Source of the DNA: Gammaproteobacteria bacterium
GTDB taxonomy: Bacteria > Pseudomonadota > Gammaproteobacteria > GCA-001735895
NCBI GenBank assembly: GCA_030066085.1
Contig: JASJCI010000008.1
Coordinates: 1-44,230 of the forward strand
Reading direction: 5' to 3'
DNA: 44,230 bases
Shown one piece after another: positions 15,148 through 20,540 of this stretch. Below the pieces are notes generated by a model. The model was not told the DNA's origin, made no database searches, and saw only the letters and a program-made list of their open reading frames with translations. Numbering within the stretch: the stretch's first letter is position 1; every line of letters starts with the position of its first letter. The position numbers were made by a program, and so were the translations under genes.

Positions 15148-16044
15148 ATGCCGCATCAATCTAACCTGCTGGGTTGCCTGTGGATGGTGGCCGGCGGGCT
15201 GCTGTTCGTCGCCGTGACCGTGCTCGTGCGCCATCTCGGCTCGGACCTGCCGGCGGTGCAGGCCGCGTTCATTCGTTATCTCGTCGGCGTTGTGCTGGTG
15301 CTGCCGATGCTGTGGCGCATGCGCGGCCGCCTGCGGCAGGCGCGCGGCATGAAGCTGTACTTCGCGCGCGGTGTCGTACACGGCGGTGCGGTCATGCTCT
15401 GGTTCTACGCGATGGCGCGGATACCGCTGGCCGACGTCACCGCGATCGGTTTTTCGACGCCGGTATTTACCGCGCTGGGCGCGGTGCTGATTTTCGGTGA
15501 AAAGATCCGCGTGCGGCGCATGCTCGCGATCGCCACCGGCTTCATCGGCACCTTGATTATCCTGCGGCCCGGGTTGCAGGTAATCGAGCCGGGTGCGCTG
15601 GCGCAGCTGGTGGCGGCGCTGCTGTTTGCGGGGTCTTTCCTGCTGGCCAAGCGCCTGACCCGGGAAGAGCCGTCAGCCGATATTCTCGTCATGCTGACGC
15701 TGTTCTGCACGCTGGCGCTGCTGCCGGGCGCAGTCTATTACTGGCAGACGCCGACCCCGGTGGAAGTGGGCTGGCTTGCGCTGGTAGCGGTGTTCGCCAC
15801 CGCCGGTCACTATGCGCTGACGCGAGCGATCGCGCATGCGCCGCTGACCGTCACCCAGCCGCTGTCGTTCCTGCAGCTGGTGTGGGCGGTACTGTTCGGC
15901 TACTGGCTGTTCGACGAGATCCCGGATGTCTGGGTCATCGGGGGCGCGGCGCTGATCGTGGCGGCAATTTCCTACCTGACGCACCGCGAGGCTGTCGCCG
16001 CGCGCCGGGTGCGGGTGCAGGCGGCCTCGACCACCGCTCCCTAG
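15148..16044 (+). CDS. EamA/DMT family transporter
   Basis: The 298-residue protein has two EamA repeats and about ten membrane segments. HGGAVMLWFYAMARIPLADVTAIGFSTPVFTALGAVLIFGEK in the first repeat and FLQLVWAVLFGYWLFDEIPD in the second are typical. It is the third transporter in a row on this strand, 69 bp after the MFS gene, and belongs to the RhaT/YdcZ-like exporter group by general pattern. Its substrate is unknown. It converges on the class V PLP gene with only 10 bp between stop codons. Confidence 0.88.
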   Translation: MPHQSNLLGCLWMVAGGLLFVAVTVLVRHLGSDLPAVQAAFIRYLVGVVLVLPMLWRMRGRLRQARGMKLYFARGVVHGGAVMLWFYAMARIPLADVTAIGFSTPVFTALGAVLIFGEKIRVRRMLAIATGFIGTLIILRPGLQVIEPGALAQLVAALLFAGSFLLAKRLTREEPSADILVMLTLFCTLALLPGAVYYWQTPTPVEVGWLALVAVFATAGHYALTRAIAHAPLTVTQPLSFLQLVWAVLFGYWLFDEIPDVWVIGGAALIVAAISYLTHREAVAARRVRVQAASTTAP

Positions 16045-16054
16045 GGTTCAATCG

Positions 16055-17293
16055 TCAGCCCAGCGCGGCGTCGAGCGCGCGCAGGATCCGGTCGACCTCG
16101 TCGAGGTTGCCGTATTGCACCAGCGACAGGCGCACGACGCCGTCGTCGGGATCGATGCCGAGATCGCTGACCAGGCGGTGGGCATAGAAGCTGCCGTTCT
16201 CGGTGCCGATGCCGGCGTCGACCAGTTTTTGCGCCAGGTCCTGCGAACTCATGTTCAGCGGTTTGAGCGCGATCGTCGGTGCGCGATCGCCGTCGCGCGC
16301 GTGGGTTTTACCGATCAGGCGCAGGCCGGGATGATGGTCGACGAAGTCGAGCAGCGGCGCCGCCAGCGCGGATTCGTGCGCGAGGATCAGCGGGTGCAGG
16401 TCGTCCAGCTTGCGCGCGAGCGGAGCAGCGGAGGCGCCGAAATGGTGGGCGTGCAGGTCGGCAAAATAGTCGGTCACGCCCGCGCAGCCGGCAACCTGCG
16501 CGTGTTGCGGTCCGGCCGGATTGAAGTCCTTGGTCGGGCTGCCGCGGTTGAAGTAATGCGCCTGCGAGGCCAGTTCGCCGTGGATATCGCGGTTGACGTA
16601 AAGCAGGCCCTGGTGAGGGCCGAACACCTTGTACAGGCTGAAGCTGTAGCCGTCGACGCCGAGCGCTTTCAGGTCCGCTACATGGTGCGGTGCATAGGCC
16701 ACGGCGTCGACGAATACCCGCGCGTTACTGGCCGACTTGATCCGGTCGACGATTGCGCGCACCGGGTTGACCGTGCCGACGATGTTCGAGCAGTGGCTGA
16801 AGAATACCCAGCGGGTATTGTCGCGCACGAGCGGCATCAGCTTGTCGACGTCCAGCAGCCCGCTGTCGGGTTCGACTTCCCACTGGCGAATCGTGACGCC
16901 TTTTTCCTTCGCCTTGCGTCGCCAGGCGCCGCTGTTGGCCTCGTGGTCCTGGTTGGTCACGATGATTTCATCACCCTCGTGCCACTGGTGACCCACGGCC
17001 TGTGCCATGACGTAGGTGTTCATCGACGTCGACGGACCGAAGGTCAGTTCCGACGGATCGATATTGAGTGCCTGCGACCAGTCGCGCCGGGCGCGGTCCA
17101 TCGCTTCGCCGGCCGCGGCCGAGCTCGGATAGGCCGCGTAGGGCTGCACCCGCGTGTGGCGGTTGTAGTGTTCCAGTACCGCGTTGGCCTGGTTGCAGAC
17201 GTAACTGCCGCCGGCATTGGACGCAAACACGAACTGCGGGTCGTCCTGGATCTGGTCGAACTGTTGGCGAACGTATTCGATATCGAGTTGCAT
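16055..17293 (-). CDS. Class V PLP-dependent enzyme, cysteine desulfurase-like but Cys-less
   Basis: The 412-residue fold-type I enzyme belongs to the cysteine-desulfurase-like subgroup. PLP contacts are visible: TNQDHEANSGAW (phosphate/ring region), VFVDAVAYAPH with Asp196, and SFSLYKVFGPHQG with Lys222 as the Schiff-base lysine. In NifS/SufS a catalytic Cys lies in a GxxxxxGxxC loop. The equivalent here is GIGTENGSFYAHRL, with Tyr370 at the Cys position, so persulfide chemistry is unlikely and another PLP reaction (lyase, epimerase or transaminase-like) is more probable. It lies 22 bp downstream of the phosphotransferase gene on the same strand, implying an operon and related substrates. 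Confidence 0.85.
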   Translation of the reverse strand: MQLDIEYVRQQFDQIQDDPQFVFASNAGGSYVCNQANAVLEHYNRHTRVQPYAAYPSSAAAGEAMDRARRDWSQALNIDPSELTFGPSTSMNTYVMAQAVGHQWHEGDEIIVTNQDHEANSGAWRRKAKEKGVTIRQWEVEPDSGLLDVDKLMPLVRDNTRWVFFSHCSNIVGTVNPVRAIVDRIKSASNARVFVDAVAYAPHHVADLKALGVDGYSFSLYKVFGPHQGLLYVNRDIHGELASQAHYFNRGSPTKDFNPAGPQHAQVAGCAGVTDYFADLHAHHFGASAAPLARKLDDLHPLILAHESALAAPLLDFVDHHPGLRLIGKTHARDGDRAPTIALKPLNMSSQDLAQKLVDAGIGTENGSFYAHRLVSDLGIDPDDGVVRLSLVQYGNLDEVDRILRALDAALG

Positions 17294-17315
17294 GGCTGGA
17301 TTCCGCTGCTGAAGG

Positions 17316-18200
17316 TCAGGTATAGGTAGAGCAGTAGTTGTGGTAAACGTCCTCGAAACGCGACAGGTTTTTCGCCGTGTATTCGGCGAAGTCCATGTCC
17401 ACGCGCGAGCCGAGTTCGGACACCATCGACCACATGGTTTCGCGCAGCAGCGATGCGCACTTCAGCGCGTGGTAGCTGGCGAGCCTTGCATCGTTCGGCG
17501 GTGTAGCGTAGTAGGCGTCGAGCATGCCGAGCTCCTGCTCGGCGGCGAGTTCGTTGTTCGACGCCAGGTTGGACAGGTCGAACAGCGGGCTGTCGAAGCC
17601 GGCGTAATCGAAGTCGATCAGCCAGATACGCTCGCCGTCGTCGATGAAATTGGCGGGCAACAGGTCGTTGTGCGCGAACACGATCTCGACCGGGCCGGTG
17701 CGGGTCTCGAGGTCCTCGGCGATGCGTCGCAGCTCGGCGAGGCGCGGACGGTGCGCGCTGTCGCCCCGCTCCAGCAGGTTGTGGTAGTGACGCAGCACCT
17801 GGAATACCCAGAACATGACCGGCACGGCATTGAATTGCCGTGGCGCTTCGCGGTGCAGGCGGCGCAGCAGGTCGATGATCCGCCCGAGGTTGTGCGGATC
17901 GCGCACGTCGGCTTCGTCGAACACCTTGCCGTCGATAAAGCGCACCACCAGCATACCGGCCTCGTGATAAACCAGTTCGGGCGATACGCCGACCGCGTGC
18001 GCGGCGCGGCAGGCCGCGATTTCGTTGGCGCGCGAAATCAGGTGAACCGGGTCGTCTTCGCCCAGGCGCACGACAAAATCGCCGGCGTCGTCGCGCACGC
18101 GGTAGTTCAGGTTGGTCATACCGCCGCTGAGGGGCTCGATGTCCACCGACCCGCGCCAGCAGGGTAGCGCGGCGATGCGTTGTTCGGTCGATTGTTGCAT
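17316..18200 (-). CDS. APH/choline-kinase-like phosphotransferase
   Basis: Starting MQQSTEQRIAALPCW, the 294-residue protein has the aminoglycoside-phosphotransferase/choline-kinase fold. It shows a glycine-rich nucleotide loop (PLSGGMTNLNYRVR), the Brenner-type catalytic motif VFAHNDLLPANF (Asp179, Asn184) and the metal-binding LIDFDYAG (Asp196). Together with YHEAGMLVVRFIDGK, the pattern is closest to LicA/choline-ethanolamine kinases rather than drug kinases. A longer reading frame runs upstream but overlaps the divergent PhyH gene; this ATG leaves a 51-bp divergent promoter region. First gene of the operon with the class V PLP enzyme, so the product may be a phosphorylated amino-alcohol handled by it; that is inference. 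Confidence 0.84.
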   Translation of the reverse strand: MQQSTEQRIAALPCWRGSVDIEPLSGGMTNLNYRVRDDAGDFVVRLGEDDPVHLISRANEIAACRAAHAVGVSPELVYHEAGMLVVRFIDGKVFDEADVRDPHNLGRIIDLLRRLHREAPRQFNAVPVMFWVFQVLRHYHNLLERGDSAHRPRLAELRRIAEDLETRTGPVEIVFAHNDLLPANFIDDGERIWLIDFDYAGFDSPLFDLSNLASNNELAAEQELGMLDAYYATPPNDARLASYHALKCASLLRETMWSMVSELGSRVDMDFAEYTAKNLSRFEDVYHNYCSTYT

Positions 18201-18251
18201 GCCCGGGGTTGTTCTGATTGGCGAACGAGGCATGATAGCATCGGCGCCGAG

Positions 18252-19049
18252 ATGCGCAATCAGGCCGAACATTTCTTCGCCCGCGGCTGGTGCCGCTTCC
18301 CGTTCGATCGGCAAATCCTGGCCTGGCGGGATGCCGCGGTCGACGCCGCGCGCGCGACGCTGGCCGATCCCCGGCACGCGGCCTGGTATCGCTACGATAA
18401 TACCTGGTTCGCGGGGGTAAACGTGTTGCCGAACCGGGGCGACAGCGCTGTCGGCGAAGGCAGGCCGCTGGCTGGCGAGGTGATCGAGTTTATCTCGCAC
18501 ACGCTCGGCCTGTCCGACTTTGCCTGGGATCCGGCGCAGGTGTCGGTCTGTTTCCCCGGCTACCCCCGGCCGATGGCGGGCGAATCGGAGGCACGTGCGC
18601 GCTACCGTCGCGAGCGCGATGCGGCACACGTCGACGGCCTGCTGCCGGAGGGTGAGCGGCGTCGCCGACACCTGCGCGAATATCACGGTTTTATCCTCGG
18701 CATCCCGCTGGTCGAGTTCGACCCGGGCGCGGCGCCGTTCGTCGTTTACGAGGGTTCACACGAAATCATGCGCGCCAGTTTCAGGCGCAGTTTCGCCGGG
18801 CTTGCGCCGGCGGACTGGGGTGAGGTCGACGTTACCGACGCCTACCAGGCCGCGCGCGAACGCGCGTTCGCCGAATCGCCGCGGGTGGAAGTGCATGCCC
18901 GCCCCGGCGAAACTTTCCTCGTGCACCGGCTGTTGTTGCACGGCACCGGGCCGTGGCAGGAGCAGGCCGGGGCCGGACCCGACGGTCGCATGATCTGTTT
19001 CTTTCGCCCGCCTATACTCGCGCCCGGTGACTGGCTCGAGCGTCCCTGA
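18252..19049 (+). CDS. PhyH-like Fe(II)/2-oxoglutarate dioxygenase
   Basis: The 265-residue protein (MRNQAEHFFARGWC start) shows the facial triad His126-x-Asp128 in AAHVDGLLPE and distal His230 in FLVHRLLLHGTGPW, with Arg246 (DGRMICFFRPP) as the likely 2-oxoglutarate anchor. The spacing and VVYEGSHEIMR (a PGSH-like motif) match the phytanoyl-CoA dioxygenase superfamily. It would hydroxylate or demethylate a small substrate using O2 and 2-oxoglutarate. Divergent from the phosphotransferase across 51 bp, and convergent with the glyoxalase-fold gene with only 2 bp between stops. The substrate is unknown; a shared pathway with the kinase and PLP enzyme is plausible. Confidence 0.74.
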   Translation: MRNQAEHFFARGWCRFPFDRQILAWRDAAVDAARATLADPRHAAWYRYDNTWFAGVNVLPNRGDSAVGEGRPLAGEVIEFISHTLGLSDFAWDPAQVSVCFPGYPRPMAGESEARARYRRERDAAHVDGLLPEGERRRRHLREYHGFILGIPLVEFDPGAAPFVVYEGSHEIMRASFRRSFAGLAPADWGEVDVTDAYQAARERAFAESPRVEVHARPGETFLVHRLLLHGTGPWQEQAGAGPDGRMICFFRPPILAPGDWLERP

Positions 19050-19051
19050 AG

Positions 19052-19723
19052 TCATCCCCGGCGGGTGATCGGCCGCGATTCGAGAGTGACGGTTGCGCGC
19101 GTCGGGGTCTCGATTGTCGCCTCGAGATAAGGTGCGTGGTCATCGTCGAGCGGGGTGATCCGCACCAGGCTCCCGGCATCGAGTTCGTCGATGCACGAGG
19201 CCAGCCAGTCCGGTCGATTGTGGTACAGCGTGAGCCGTCGCAGCCGGCAGCCGGGGTCGGCCATCGCCAGTGCCGGATGCGGCGCGCTGTGCCACTGGAT
19301 ACAGTACGGCAGCAGGCCGTCCGCCAGCAGGCGGCCGTCGTCGGTCAGCGCAATCTGCCACTCCAGCCGGTCACGCGCGAGCCGGGTCGGCGTGCCGAGG
19401 TCGAAGTTGCAAGCCTGCGCCAGTCGCGCCAGGTCGGGCGTGTTCAGCGCCCAGGTCACCAGCCGCGGGCCGTGGCGCAGGCTGTCGCGCATCAGGGCCG
19501 AATCGAGCCCGAACCAGCGTGGCCGCGCCGGCGCCGCGGCTGCCGGGTCGATCGCGATGACCTCGAGATAAATACTGTCGCCGAGCTGCATCAGCAGGTT
19601 ATGCGTACCCATCGCGACGTGTTTGCCACCCGGCGCGATGTCGACGCCGAGCTGTGCGCTTACCCAGGCCCCACCCTCGGCCAGGCTGGCGGCGGCGACG
19701 ATCAGGTGGTCGATACGTTGCAT
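19052..19723 (-). CDS. Glyoxalase-like (VOC fold) domain protein
   Basis: From MQRIDHLIVAAASLAEG the protein is 223 residues. It has the glyoxalase_3-type N-terminus (DHLIVAAxxLxxG...LGVDIxxGGKHxxMGTHNLLMQLGDSIYLEVIAIDP), which recurs in a family of uncharacterised VOC-fold proteins. Candidate metal ligands are His6 of DHL, His in GGKHVAMGTHN and Glu in YLEVI. A longer frame extends 37 codons upstream, but it would overlap the divergent hydrolase gene and lacks family similarity. Function unknown; VOC proteins include dioxygenases, isomerases and resistance proteins. Confidence 0.78.
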   Translation of the reverse strand: MQRIDHLIVAAASLAEGGAWVSAQLGVDIAPGGKHVAMGTHNLLMQLGDSIYLEVIAIDPAAAAPARPRWFGLDSALMRDSLRHGPRLVTWALNTPDLARLAQACNFDLGTPTRLARDRLEWQIALTDDGRLLADGLLPYCIQWHSAPHPALAMADPGCRLRRLTLYHNRPDWLASCIDELDAGSLVRITPLDDDHAPYLEATIETPTRATVTLESRPITRRG

Positions 19724-19811
19724 GCCGACATGGTAGGGCAGGGCGCTACCGGAGAACAGGTTTCCGGAGTAGAATTTCGCCCAGTCCACGAATAAGAACG
19801 AGGTTCCGCCG

Positions 19812-20540
19812 ATGAATATCCTGACCAACCGCATCGAATACAGTGTCGGTGACGCCAGTCACCAGGCTTACCTGGCCTACGACGACGAGATTACCGAGGC
19901 CCGCCCCGGCGTCATCATCGTGCACGAATGGTGGGGCCTGAACGACTACCCGGTGCGCCGCGCGCACATGCTGGCCGAGCTCGGTTACGTCGCGCTCGCG
20001 CTCGACATGTTCGGTGGCGGGCGCACCGCGGACAACCCCGACCAGGCGGGCGCGTTGATGAACGGCGTGCTCGGCGATATGGATACCGGCACGGCGGCAT
20101 TGCGCGCCGGCCACGAACTGCTGCTGCAGCAACCGGGGGTCGATCCCGCGCGCACCGCCGCGATCGGTTACTGTTTCGGCGGCGCAATGGTGCTGCACAT
20201 GGCGCGTATCGGTATGCCGCTGGCGGCGGTAGCCAGTTTTCACGGCGCGCTGGGATCGTTTCACCCGCCGCAGCCCGGCGAGGTCAGGGCGCGTGTCCTG
20301 GTATGCCACGGTGCCGCCGACAGCATGGTCAGCATGGACGATCTCGACGCTTTCAAAACCGAGATGGACGCCGCCGGGGCGGATTACGAGGTGCTGTTGC
20401 TCGACGGTGCAAAGCACGGCTTCAGTAATCCCGAGGCCAGCGTCAACGCGGAAAAATACGGGCTCGATCTCGCTTACGACGAGGCCGCCGACCGGCAGTC
20501 GTGGAGCGCGATGACCGATCTTTTCGGCCGGGTGTTCTGA
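19812..20540 (+). CDS. Dienelactone hydrolase family protein
   Basis: The 242-residue alpha/beta hydrolase has the DLH triad: Cys121 in GYCFGGA, Asp170 in CHGAADSMV and His202 in AKHGFSNP. Glu39 in VHEWWGLN is the partner that activates the cysteine in dienelactone hydrolase. DLH cleaves dienelactone to maleylacetate, but many family members act on other esters or are of unknown role. It opens a run of five plus-strand genes; its stop overlaps the pdxH start by one base. A TAGAAT hexamer at 19770-19775 in the 88-bp divergent gap may be its -10 box. Confidence 0.87.
   Translation: MNILTNRIEYSVGDASHQAYLAYDDEITEARPGVIIVHEWWGLNDYPVRRAHMLAELGYVALALDMFGGGRTADNPDQAGALMNGVLGDMDTGTAALRAGHELLLQQPGVDPARTAAIGYCFGGAMVLHMARIGMPLAAVASFHGALGSFHPPQPGEVRARVLVCHGAADSMVSMDDLDAFKTEMDAAGADYEVLLLDGAKHGFSNPEASVNAEKYGLDLAYDEAADRQSWSAMTDLFGRVF

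Follow-up and report, generated by a model that had tools for sequence, protein, structure and literature searches.

In carnitine biosynthesis, a trimethylated amino acid is hydroxylated by an Fe(II)/2-oxoglutarate (2OG) enzyme, TMLH, and the product is then cut in a retro-aldol reaction by HTML aldolase, an enzyme that uses pyridoxal phosphate (PLP). The same hydroxylate-then-cleave logic, applied to a different bond, is already known from the fusaoctaxin starter-unit route of Fusarium graminearum. As described in the available parts of PMC10967133 and PMC10367076, arginine is hydroxylated by FGM1 and FGM3 then cleaves the Cbeta-Cgamma bond of 4-hydroxyarginine to give L-alanine and an aldehyde; Y225 of FGM3 is proposed as the general base in the latter (PMC10367076). 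We analysed a stretch of 44,230 nucleotides (the window) from contig JASJCI010000008.1 of a gammaproteobacterium, probably a marine-sediment organism, that carries adjacent genes for a PLP enzyme related to FGM3, a choline-kinase/APH-type kinase (KIN) and a predicted PhyH-type oxygenase (OX). The three-gene arrangement is conserved across the window's genus, beyond chance. A functional link between the three genes is likely because of this genus-wide linkage, because 13 of the 14 family genomes that lack the PLP enzyme also lack the other two, and because OX and the PLP enzyme co-occur elsewhere.

Conservation of the three-gene locus

The three genes are present and placed as the initial annotation of this DNA had stated. 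KIN and the PLP gene are on the same strand with 22 bases between the KIN stop and the PLP start, and the operon that had been proposed for this pair is therefore plausible from the sequence. OX is divergent, as had also been noted, with its start at 18252 lying across 51 bases from the KIN start at 18200. The KIN start is backed by homologues, and an alternative in-frame start is found upstream at 18233. The features are given below by their positions in the window.

16055..17293, minus strand: gene for the Cys-less class-V fold-type-I PLP enzyme, FGM3/UstD-like, 412 amino acids
16628..16630, minus strand: codon of Lys222, which by alignment would form the Schiff base with PLP (invariant, 26/26)
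16706..16708, minus strand: codon of Asp196, which by alignment would contact the PLP pyridine N (invariant, 26/26)
16184..16186, minus strand: codon of Tyr370, in the place of the Cys of desulfurases (invariant, 26/26)
17316..18200, minus strand: KIN, choline-kinase/APH-type kinase, 294 amino acids, first gene of the KIN-PLP pair
18201..18251, no strand: divergent intergenic region between KIN and OX, 51 bases
18252..19049, plus strand: OX, predicted PhyH-type Fe(II)/2OG oxygenase, 265 amino acids
18627..18635, plus strand: codons of His126-x-Asp128 of OX, predicted iron-binding HxD (motif and alignment)
15148..16044, plus strand: EamA-family transporter gene, convergent with the PLP gene and 10 bases from its stop

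The window's genus is probably Woeseiaceae. Of the 41 genomes searched in the order, 27 have the PLP enzyme at a threshold of E <= 1e-40; it is present in 27/31 of the genus and 0/10 of two sister genera. There are 26 further loci in the genus, and 21 of them (L034-L054) extend far enough past the PLP gene to be testable. OX lies beside the PLP gene or KIN in 20 of these 21 loci and KIN lies beside the PLP gene in 17. The flanking genes vary among members of the genus and PLP-(KIN)-OX is retained. Loci with the same arrangement include that of the Olavius algarvensis Gamma 3 endosymbiont; L066 has KIN beside OX, and in L056 (G027) the first 49 residues of OX lie beside KIN at a contig end. The exception to the placement of OX is G007, in which KIN is present and OX is nowhere in the genome. 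Four loci of the genus (L048-L051) have no KIN at the PLP gene; in three of these genomes a KIN homologue lies at another site, next to a gene that is demethylase-like by eye, and the gutless-worm symbiont has no KIN homologue in its genome and a broken PLP frame. Among the 14 family genomes without the PLP enzyme, the sole one that retains partners is G011, where KIN is accompanied by a broken OX and the contig ends just past KIN. Decay or assembly error may explain both defective copies, namely the frame-shifted PLP gene of the gutless-worm symbiont (L051:7971-8978 onwards) and the interrupted OX of G011 (L322:4744-5517). The alignments include 15/21 available genus OX sequences (A1), 13/27 genus PLP matches (A2) and 10/18 genus KIN sequences (A3), the window included.

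Two further genes border the locus. The EamA-family transporter gene adjoins the PLP gene in part of the genus only and is a possible accessory of the module. A Glyoxalase_3-domain protein (144.7 bits; 19052-19834) adjoins OX in the window and in part of the genus, and is displaced in other members.

Co-occurrence in other genomes

The OX scan returned 62 loci, of which we assign 22 to the genus by synteny; the other 40 are treated as outside it. A three-gene neighbourhood outside the genus was rejected, as the PLP gene was found in 0/40 of the outside loci (up to 10 kb on each side, less at contig ends); in one of the 40, a kinase gene at a distance of about 7 kb matches weakly (30% identity). 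In the 41 genomes reached through OX, the PLP enzyme was present in 34 and KIN in 33 (E 1e-40), distant from OX, or in 33/40 and 32/40 when G445, a genus member at the same contig place as G009, is left out; these genomes were reached through two OX peptide patterns and form clusters of near relatives, and the percentages are no population estimate.

The three genes were also counted in two less biased genome samples, at thresholds that vary by gene (1e-10, 1e-60 and 1e-40); the genome-level tests ignore phylogeny, and the p values given here have no control gene pair. The 369 gammaproteobacterial genomes contain OX in 8, the PLP enzyme in 15 and KIN in 7. With the window's genus left out, the PLP enzyme is present in 4/6 OX-positive and 9/360 OX-negative genomes (p 1.4e-5), KIN in 2/6 and 3/360 of the same groups (p 0.002), and the PLP enzyme in 2/5 KIN-positive genomes vs 11/361 (p 0.011). 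Counted by genus, OX and the PLP enzyme occur together in 3/3 (p 3.7e-5). The 240 alphaproteobacterial genomes contain OX in 6, the PLP enzyme in 32 and KIN in 20; with the centre set aside, OX-PLP co-occurrence is 3/5 vs 28/234 (p 0.017) and PLP-KIN co-occurrence is 9/20 vs 22/219 (p 2e-4). The co-occurrence of OX and the PLP enzyme is strong in the sampled Gammaproteobacteria and weak in the Alphaproteobacteria. KIN as an obligatory partner of OX was rejected (0/5 in the Alphaproteobacteria). The search for the neighbourhood that the initial annotation had proposed thus bears it out in part: the arrangement is conserved in the genus and OX-PLP co-occurrence extends beyond it, but the trio was seen adjacent in one genus only and the OX-KIN association fails in the alphaproteobacterial sample.

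The PLP enzyme

The PLP enzyme matches Aminotran_5 with 152.9 bits (Pfam cut-off 21.5), and Lys222, Asp196, His117, Arg388 and Tyr370 are identical across the 26 diverse rows of the family alignment. The match above the cut-off and the invariant Lys222 and Asp196 place the protein among the fold-type-I class-V PLP enzymes. The initial annotation had singled out Lys222, Asp196 and Tyr370, and all three residues are as it described. The missing Cys is real, but it is a family trait (Tyr replaces the catalytic Cys of the desulfurases in 26/26 rows) and not a peculiarity of the window protein. The best NCBIfam match, TIGR01976 'cysteine desulfurase-like protein', is full-length and scores 285.6 bits, below the curated cut-off of 352.35, as do nine relatives that were tried. 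The SufS model gives 136.4 bits, under its cut-off of 475.1, and a cysteine desulfurase (SufS/IscS) identity was rejected on this score and on the lack of the mobile-loop Cys.

A single-sequence search against solved structures gave FGM3 (E 6.7e-61) and the decarboxylative aldolase UstD (1.5e-39). With the family profile the values were 7.2e-99 for FGM3, 1.2e-67 for UstD and 9.1e-56 for the best desulfurase, with FGM3 ahead of UstD by about 100 bits. FGM3 is the closest solved protein by sequence, which relates the enzyme to FGM3-type lyases. UstD is the top fold match of the AlphaFold model (E 5.0e-31; template modelling score, TM, 0.87; predicted local distance difference test, pLDDT, 93.4), and FGM3 is absent among the 50 fold matches listed. 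Judged by sequence, the PLP enzyme is closer to C-C bond enzymes than to desulfurases.

Arg388 aligns with what we take to be the carboxylate-binding Arg of SufS. The plasmid collection holds 33 records of PLP relatives; the three viewed (Aureimonas, Polaromonas and Rhizobium; 36-37% identity) all have an amino-acid ABC transporter before and a dihydropyrimidinase gene after the 'cysteine desulfurase-like' relative. These plasmid operons (L328-L330) combine a PLP enzyme with a ring-opening amidohydrolase and are reminiscent of FGM3/FGM2. Because Arg388 is invariant and distant relatives lie beside amino-acid ABC importers, an alpha-amino acid is likelier as the substrate of the PLP enzyme than the amino-alcohol of the initial annotation, which is still plausible as a substrate of KIN.

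The oxygenase

In the sequence searches, no family matches OX at E 0.001, PhyH (PF05721) scores 18.8 bits (cut-off 22, E 0.0021), TauD and GBBH give no Pfam match at E 0.1, and no clear solved relative was found by sequence. In the OX alignment, PhyH matches 6/30 rows at E 0.1. The plasmid collection gave no match to OX. The fold of the model (pLDDT 96.4) resembles those of PhyH-type Fe/2OG enzymes: the Foldseek match is SnoK (E 6.9e-07), and the VIA matches are SnoN (Z 16.7; root-mean-square deviation 2.5 with 183 residues aligned), GriE (Z 15.5) and proline hydroxylase H11 (Z 14.9). GriE and H11 are hydroxylases of free amino acids. H126, D128, H225, H230 and R246 are invariant in 30/30 rows, and H126, D128 and H230 are presumably the iron ligands and R246 the 2OG-binding residue, as we take them from the known motif. 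The predicted fold and the HxD...H and Arg residues identify OX as a PhyH-type Fe/2OG oxygenase. The PhyH assignment of the initial annotation is therefore backed by the fold matches and not by Pfam, where the score stays below the cut-off.

The kinase

KIN scores above the Pfam cut-off for both APH (78.5 bits) and Choline_kinase (77.3 bits), in agreement with the initial annotation. The catalytic motif H177-N178-D179 ... N184, D196 is invariant in 10/10 rows, as in choline kinase/APH proteins. GntI (NF041256) is the best NCBIfam match (E 9.6e-47), with 159.6 bits against a cut-off of 357, and a GntI identity was rejected on that score; other kinases at these loci also match this model.

A tree was built from 46 kinases that include four second kinases as the outer group. 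The 11 in-operon kinases of the genus form a supported clade (100/98), and together with five kinases of other OX-positive Gammaproteobacteria they form a clade of 16 (100/100). One of the five, L224, adjoins a demethylase gene, as do 20 of the 26 kinases outside the clade (outer group excluded).

Neighbours outside the genus

KIN overlaps or lies within 70 bases of a demethylase gene (DMGDH/SoxA-GcvT-like) in 18/28 loci and has a betaine/choline-type permease within 8 kb in 15/28, where the demethylase and permease queries were drawn from L241, one of the 28. The recurrent operon (L222-L241, L297-L304 and L319-L321, the demethylase of the last three being recognised by eye; also L325-L327) holds a KIN-family kinase, a FAD/GcvT demethylase of about 815 residues, a betaine/choline-type ABC transporter and DeoR, and sometimes adds a second choline-kinase-like gene, a phosphatase, ETF, FolD and PurU. 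The literature search found no substrate assignment for this operon. Three of the 19 plasmid records of KIN relatives were viewed. The cultured Alphaproteobacteria Salipiger and Ruegeria have DeoR, a betaine-type ABC transporter, KIN, an FAD oxidoreductase and an inositol-monophosphatase-family gene, to which Salipiger adds ETF, FolD and PurU; the Shinella plasmid has DeoR, KIN and an FAD oxidoreductase.

The PLP gene has a BCCT (betaine) transporter within 3 kb in 5/41 loci (L213 and L277 confirmed by profile) and a type III glutamine synthetase within 1.3 kb in 3/41 (TIGR03105 for L220), with queries taken from L277 and L220 among the 41. The type III glutamine synthetase family includes gamma-glutamylmethylamide synthetase. 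In three OX-carrying Gammaproteobacteria (L219, L220 and L221), the genes of PLP relatives are separated by 54 to 1261 bases from those for a type III glutamine synthetase and for glutamate-synthase-like proteins, a set that we take to be N-methylglutamate-pathway-like. SoxA (sarcosine oxidase) is found within 7 kb of OX in 10/51 loci, many of them near relatives, and a GBBH-like oxygenase gene lies about 2 kb from OX in L091. In L287:5780-11198 the genes around an OX relative include two that are glutamine-synthetase-like by eye and one for a class III aminotransferase, and the region looks like a polyamine-breakdown locus.

The outside neighbours suggest methylated amines, strongly for KIN and weakly for OX and the PLP enzyme. 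An aminophosphonate, which had been named as a possible substrate, finds no support: no phosphonate gene was recognised by eye among the recurrent neighbours.

A possible pathway and its alternatives

FGM3 and UstD handle gamma-hydroxy alpha-amino acids, the adjacent hydroxylase could supply the hydroxyl, and the outside contexts are those of methylated amines. For these reasons we tentatively propose, as a possibility that may well prove wrong, that OX, the PLP enzyme and KIN are one module for the hydroxylation, Cbeta-Cgamma retro-aldol cleavage and phosphorylation of an amine-bearing amino acid. OX would hydroxylate a free amino acid whose distal end bears an amine, which may be methylated. 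The PLP enzyme would form an external aldimine through Lys222 and cleave the Cbeta-Cgamma bond of the gamma-hydroxy-alpha-amino acid to yield L-alanine and an amine-bearing aldehyde. KIN would phosphorylate a choline-like alcohol derived from the aldehyde, or else a different amino-alcohol within this metabolism. The reaction types are drawn by analogy from relatives, and the order of the steps and the direction (breakdown rather than synthesis) are guessed. The linkage of the genes is better supported than the chemistry. The substrate is guessed as well, and amino acids resembling trimethyllysine or methylated ornithine/arginine are fitting candidates. A more specific version is a long shot: OX would hydroxylate a trimethyllysine-like (distally N-methylated) amino acid at C4, the PLP enzyme would cut the product between Cbeta and Cgamma, giving alanine together with an aldehyde of the betaine type, and KIN would phosphorylate the alcohol of that aldehyde. 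The initial annotation had placed the three enzymes in one pathway, and the likely functional link of the trio speaks for this part of its proposal.

Several results weigh against the proposed module. Among the loci scanned, the three genes are adjacent in one genus only, and five PLP-positive genomes of that genus miss one or both partners (OX is missing from G007, KIN from G001 and G004, and both from G016 and G024), with G004, G016 and G024 being 71-87% complete and having a contig end at the site. OX and KIN do not occur together in the alphaproteobacterial sample (0/5, centre set aside). By genus, the gammaproteobacterial association is 1/3 for OX-KIN (p 0.044) and 1/4 for PLP-KIN (p 0.14), the window's genus left out, and the PLP enzyme occurs without OX in 9/13 PLP-positive Gammaproteobacteria outside the genus and in 28/31 Alphaproteobacteria. 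Judged by the initial residues of its long frames, the window has no recognisable methylated-amine gene. Methylated-amine genes are common in marine Alphaproteobacteria, and the neighbour counts of OX and the PLP enzyme may therefore be little above background. Finally, FGM3 Tyr225 most likely aligns (numbering inferred) with F224 of the PLP enzyme, a position with 12 F and 14 Y in the family.

The best-surviving alternative, which we consider unlikely, is that the three enzymes have unrelated functions and their genes were kept adjacent by descent in one genus. The restricted adjacency, the separate context of each gene elsewhere, the lack of OX-KIN co-occurrence in the Alphaproteobacteria and the five genus genomes with missing partners agree with it. 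It does not sit well with flanks that change within the genus around a constant PLP-(KIN)-OX core, with the joint absence of the genes from 13/14 of the PLP-lacking family genomes or with OX-PLP co-occurrence in Gammaproteobacteria outside the genus.

Synthesis is distinctly unlikely. OX would make or modify an aldehyde acceptor, and the UstD-like enzyme would decarboxylate aspartate and add the enamine to the aldehyde to form a gamma-hydroxy amino acid. UstD is the top fold match and second in sequence, UstD likewise has F at the position aligned with F224, and part of the genus has an EamA-type transporter gene adjoining the PLP gene; however, FGM3 is closer in sequence, uptake and demethylation genes are among the recurrent neighbours outside the genus, and no peptide or secondary-metabolite synthetase was recognised in the window (first residues of long frames).

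The route of the initial annotation is very unlikely; in it, an amino-alcohol would be phosphorylated by KIN and oxidised by OX, and the PLP enzyme would cleave the phosphorylated product by phospho-lyase type chemistry. KIN is choline-kinase-like and lies in demethylase/betaine-transport operons elsewhere, and an inositol-monophosphatase-family gene is found within 8 kb of KIN in 3/31 loci (L299, L320 and L228) and beside the PLP gene in 1/41 (L280), as well as in two annotated plasmids. Arg388, by its presumed SufS equivalence, and the likeness to FGM3 and UstD point instead to alpha-amino acids, as do the amino-acid importers beside distant PLP relatives (3/3 viewed). That the PLP protein has kept a desulfurase or C-S lyase activity which works without the mobile Cys is hardly credible, since the site lacks Cys in 26/26 rows and the closest sequence relatives are C-C bond enzymes, despite the shared fold and the sub-threshold SufS match.

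Comparison with known systems

In the open-access literature searched, we found no combination of a PhyH-type oxygenase with an FGM3-type enzyme and a choline-kinase-like kinase, in line with the earlier statement that the pathway is not assigned. Searches on bacterial trimethyllysine breakdown and on Woeseiaceae with methylated amines gave no assignment for the gene set, and a term search of the available part of PMC12175321 returned none of betaine, methylamine, sarcosine, choline and taurine. If the genus is Woeseiaceae, it belongs to an order that reportedly accounts for 1-22% of the 16S sequences retrieved from marine sediments and whose niches are described as little known (available part of PMC7082342). 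If the specific trimethyllysine-like version were true, it would open a so far undescribed way for methylated amino acids to enter betaine/methylated-amine metabolism in common seafloor bacteria. More generally, if its chemistry is of the FGM3 type, the set would give bacteria a route that cleaves C-C bonds of amine-bearing amino acids, biocatalysis would gain lyases or aldolases for gamma-hydroxy amino acids from bacteria, and the misleading label 'cysteine desulfurase-like' would be corrected.

Among the family models, TIGR01976 resembles the PLP enzyme over its full length and GntI is the nearest NCBIfam model to KIN, and in both cases the score is below the cut-off. UstD is similar in its fold and in the order of active-site residues in the alignment, but is a weaker sequence match than FGM3. 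TMLH and HTML aldolase share the hydroxylation of a trimethylated amino acid followed by retro-aldol cleavage (available part of PMC13245600); the bond cut there is Calpha-Cbeta, and OX does not share the TauD/GBBH domains by Pfam at E 0.1. The FGM1/FGM2/FGM3 system differs from the window in that its oxygenase is a P450 rather than PhyH-type, a kinase accompanies the bacterial genes, and the bacterial signatures KVQPY and HHF differ from those of FGM3. It is similar in that FGM3 is the closest solved relative of the PLP enzyme by sequence, in having a separate oxygenase for the prior hydroxylation of the amino acid, and in that FGM3 works with the amidohydrolase FGM2 (available part of PMC10967133), as distant bacterial relatives of the PLP enzyme adjoin a dihydropyrimidinase gene.

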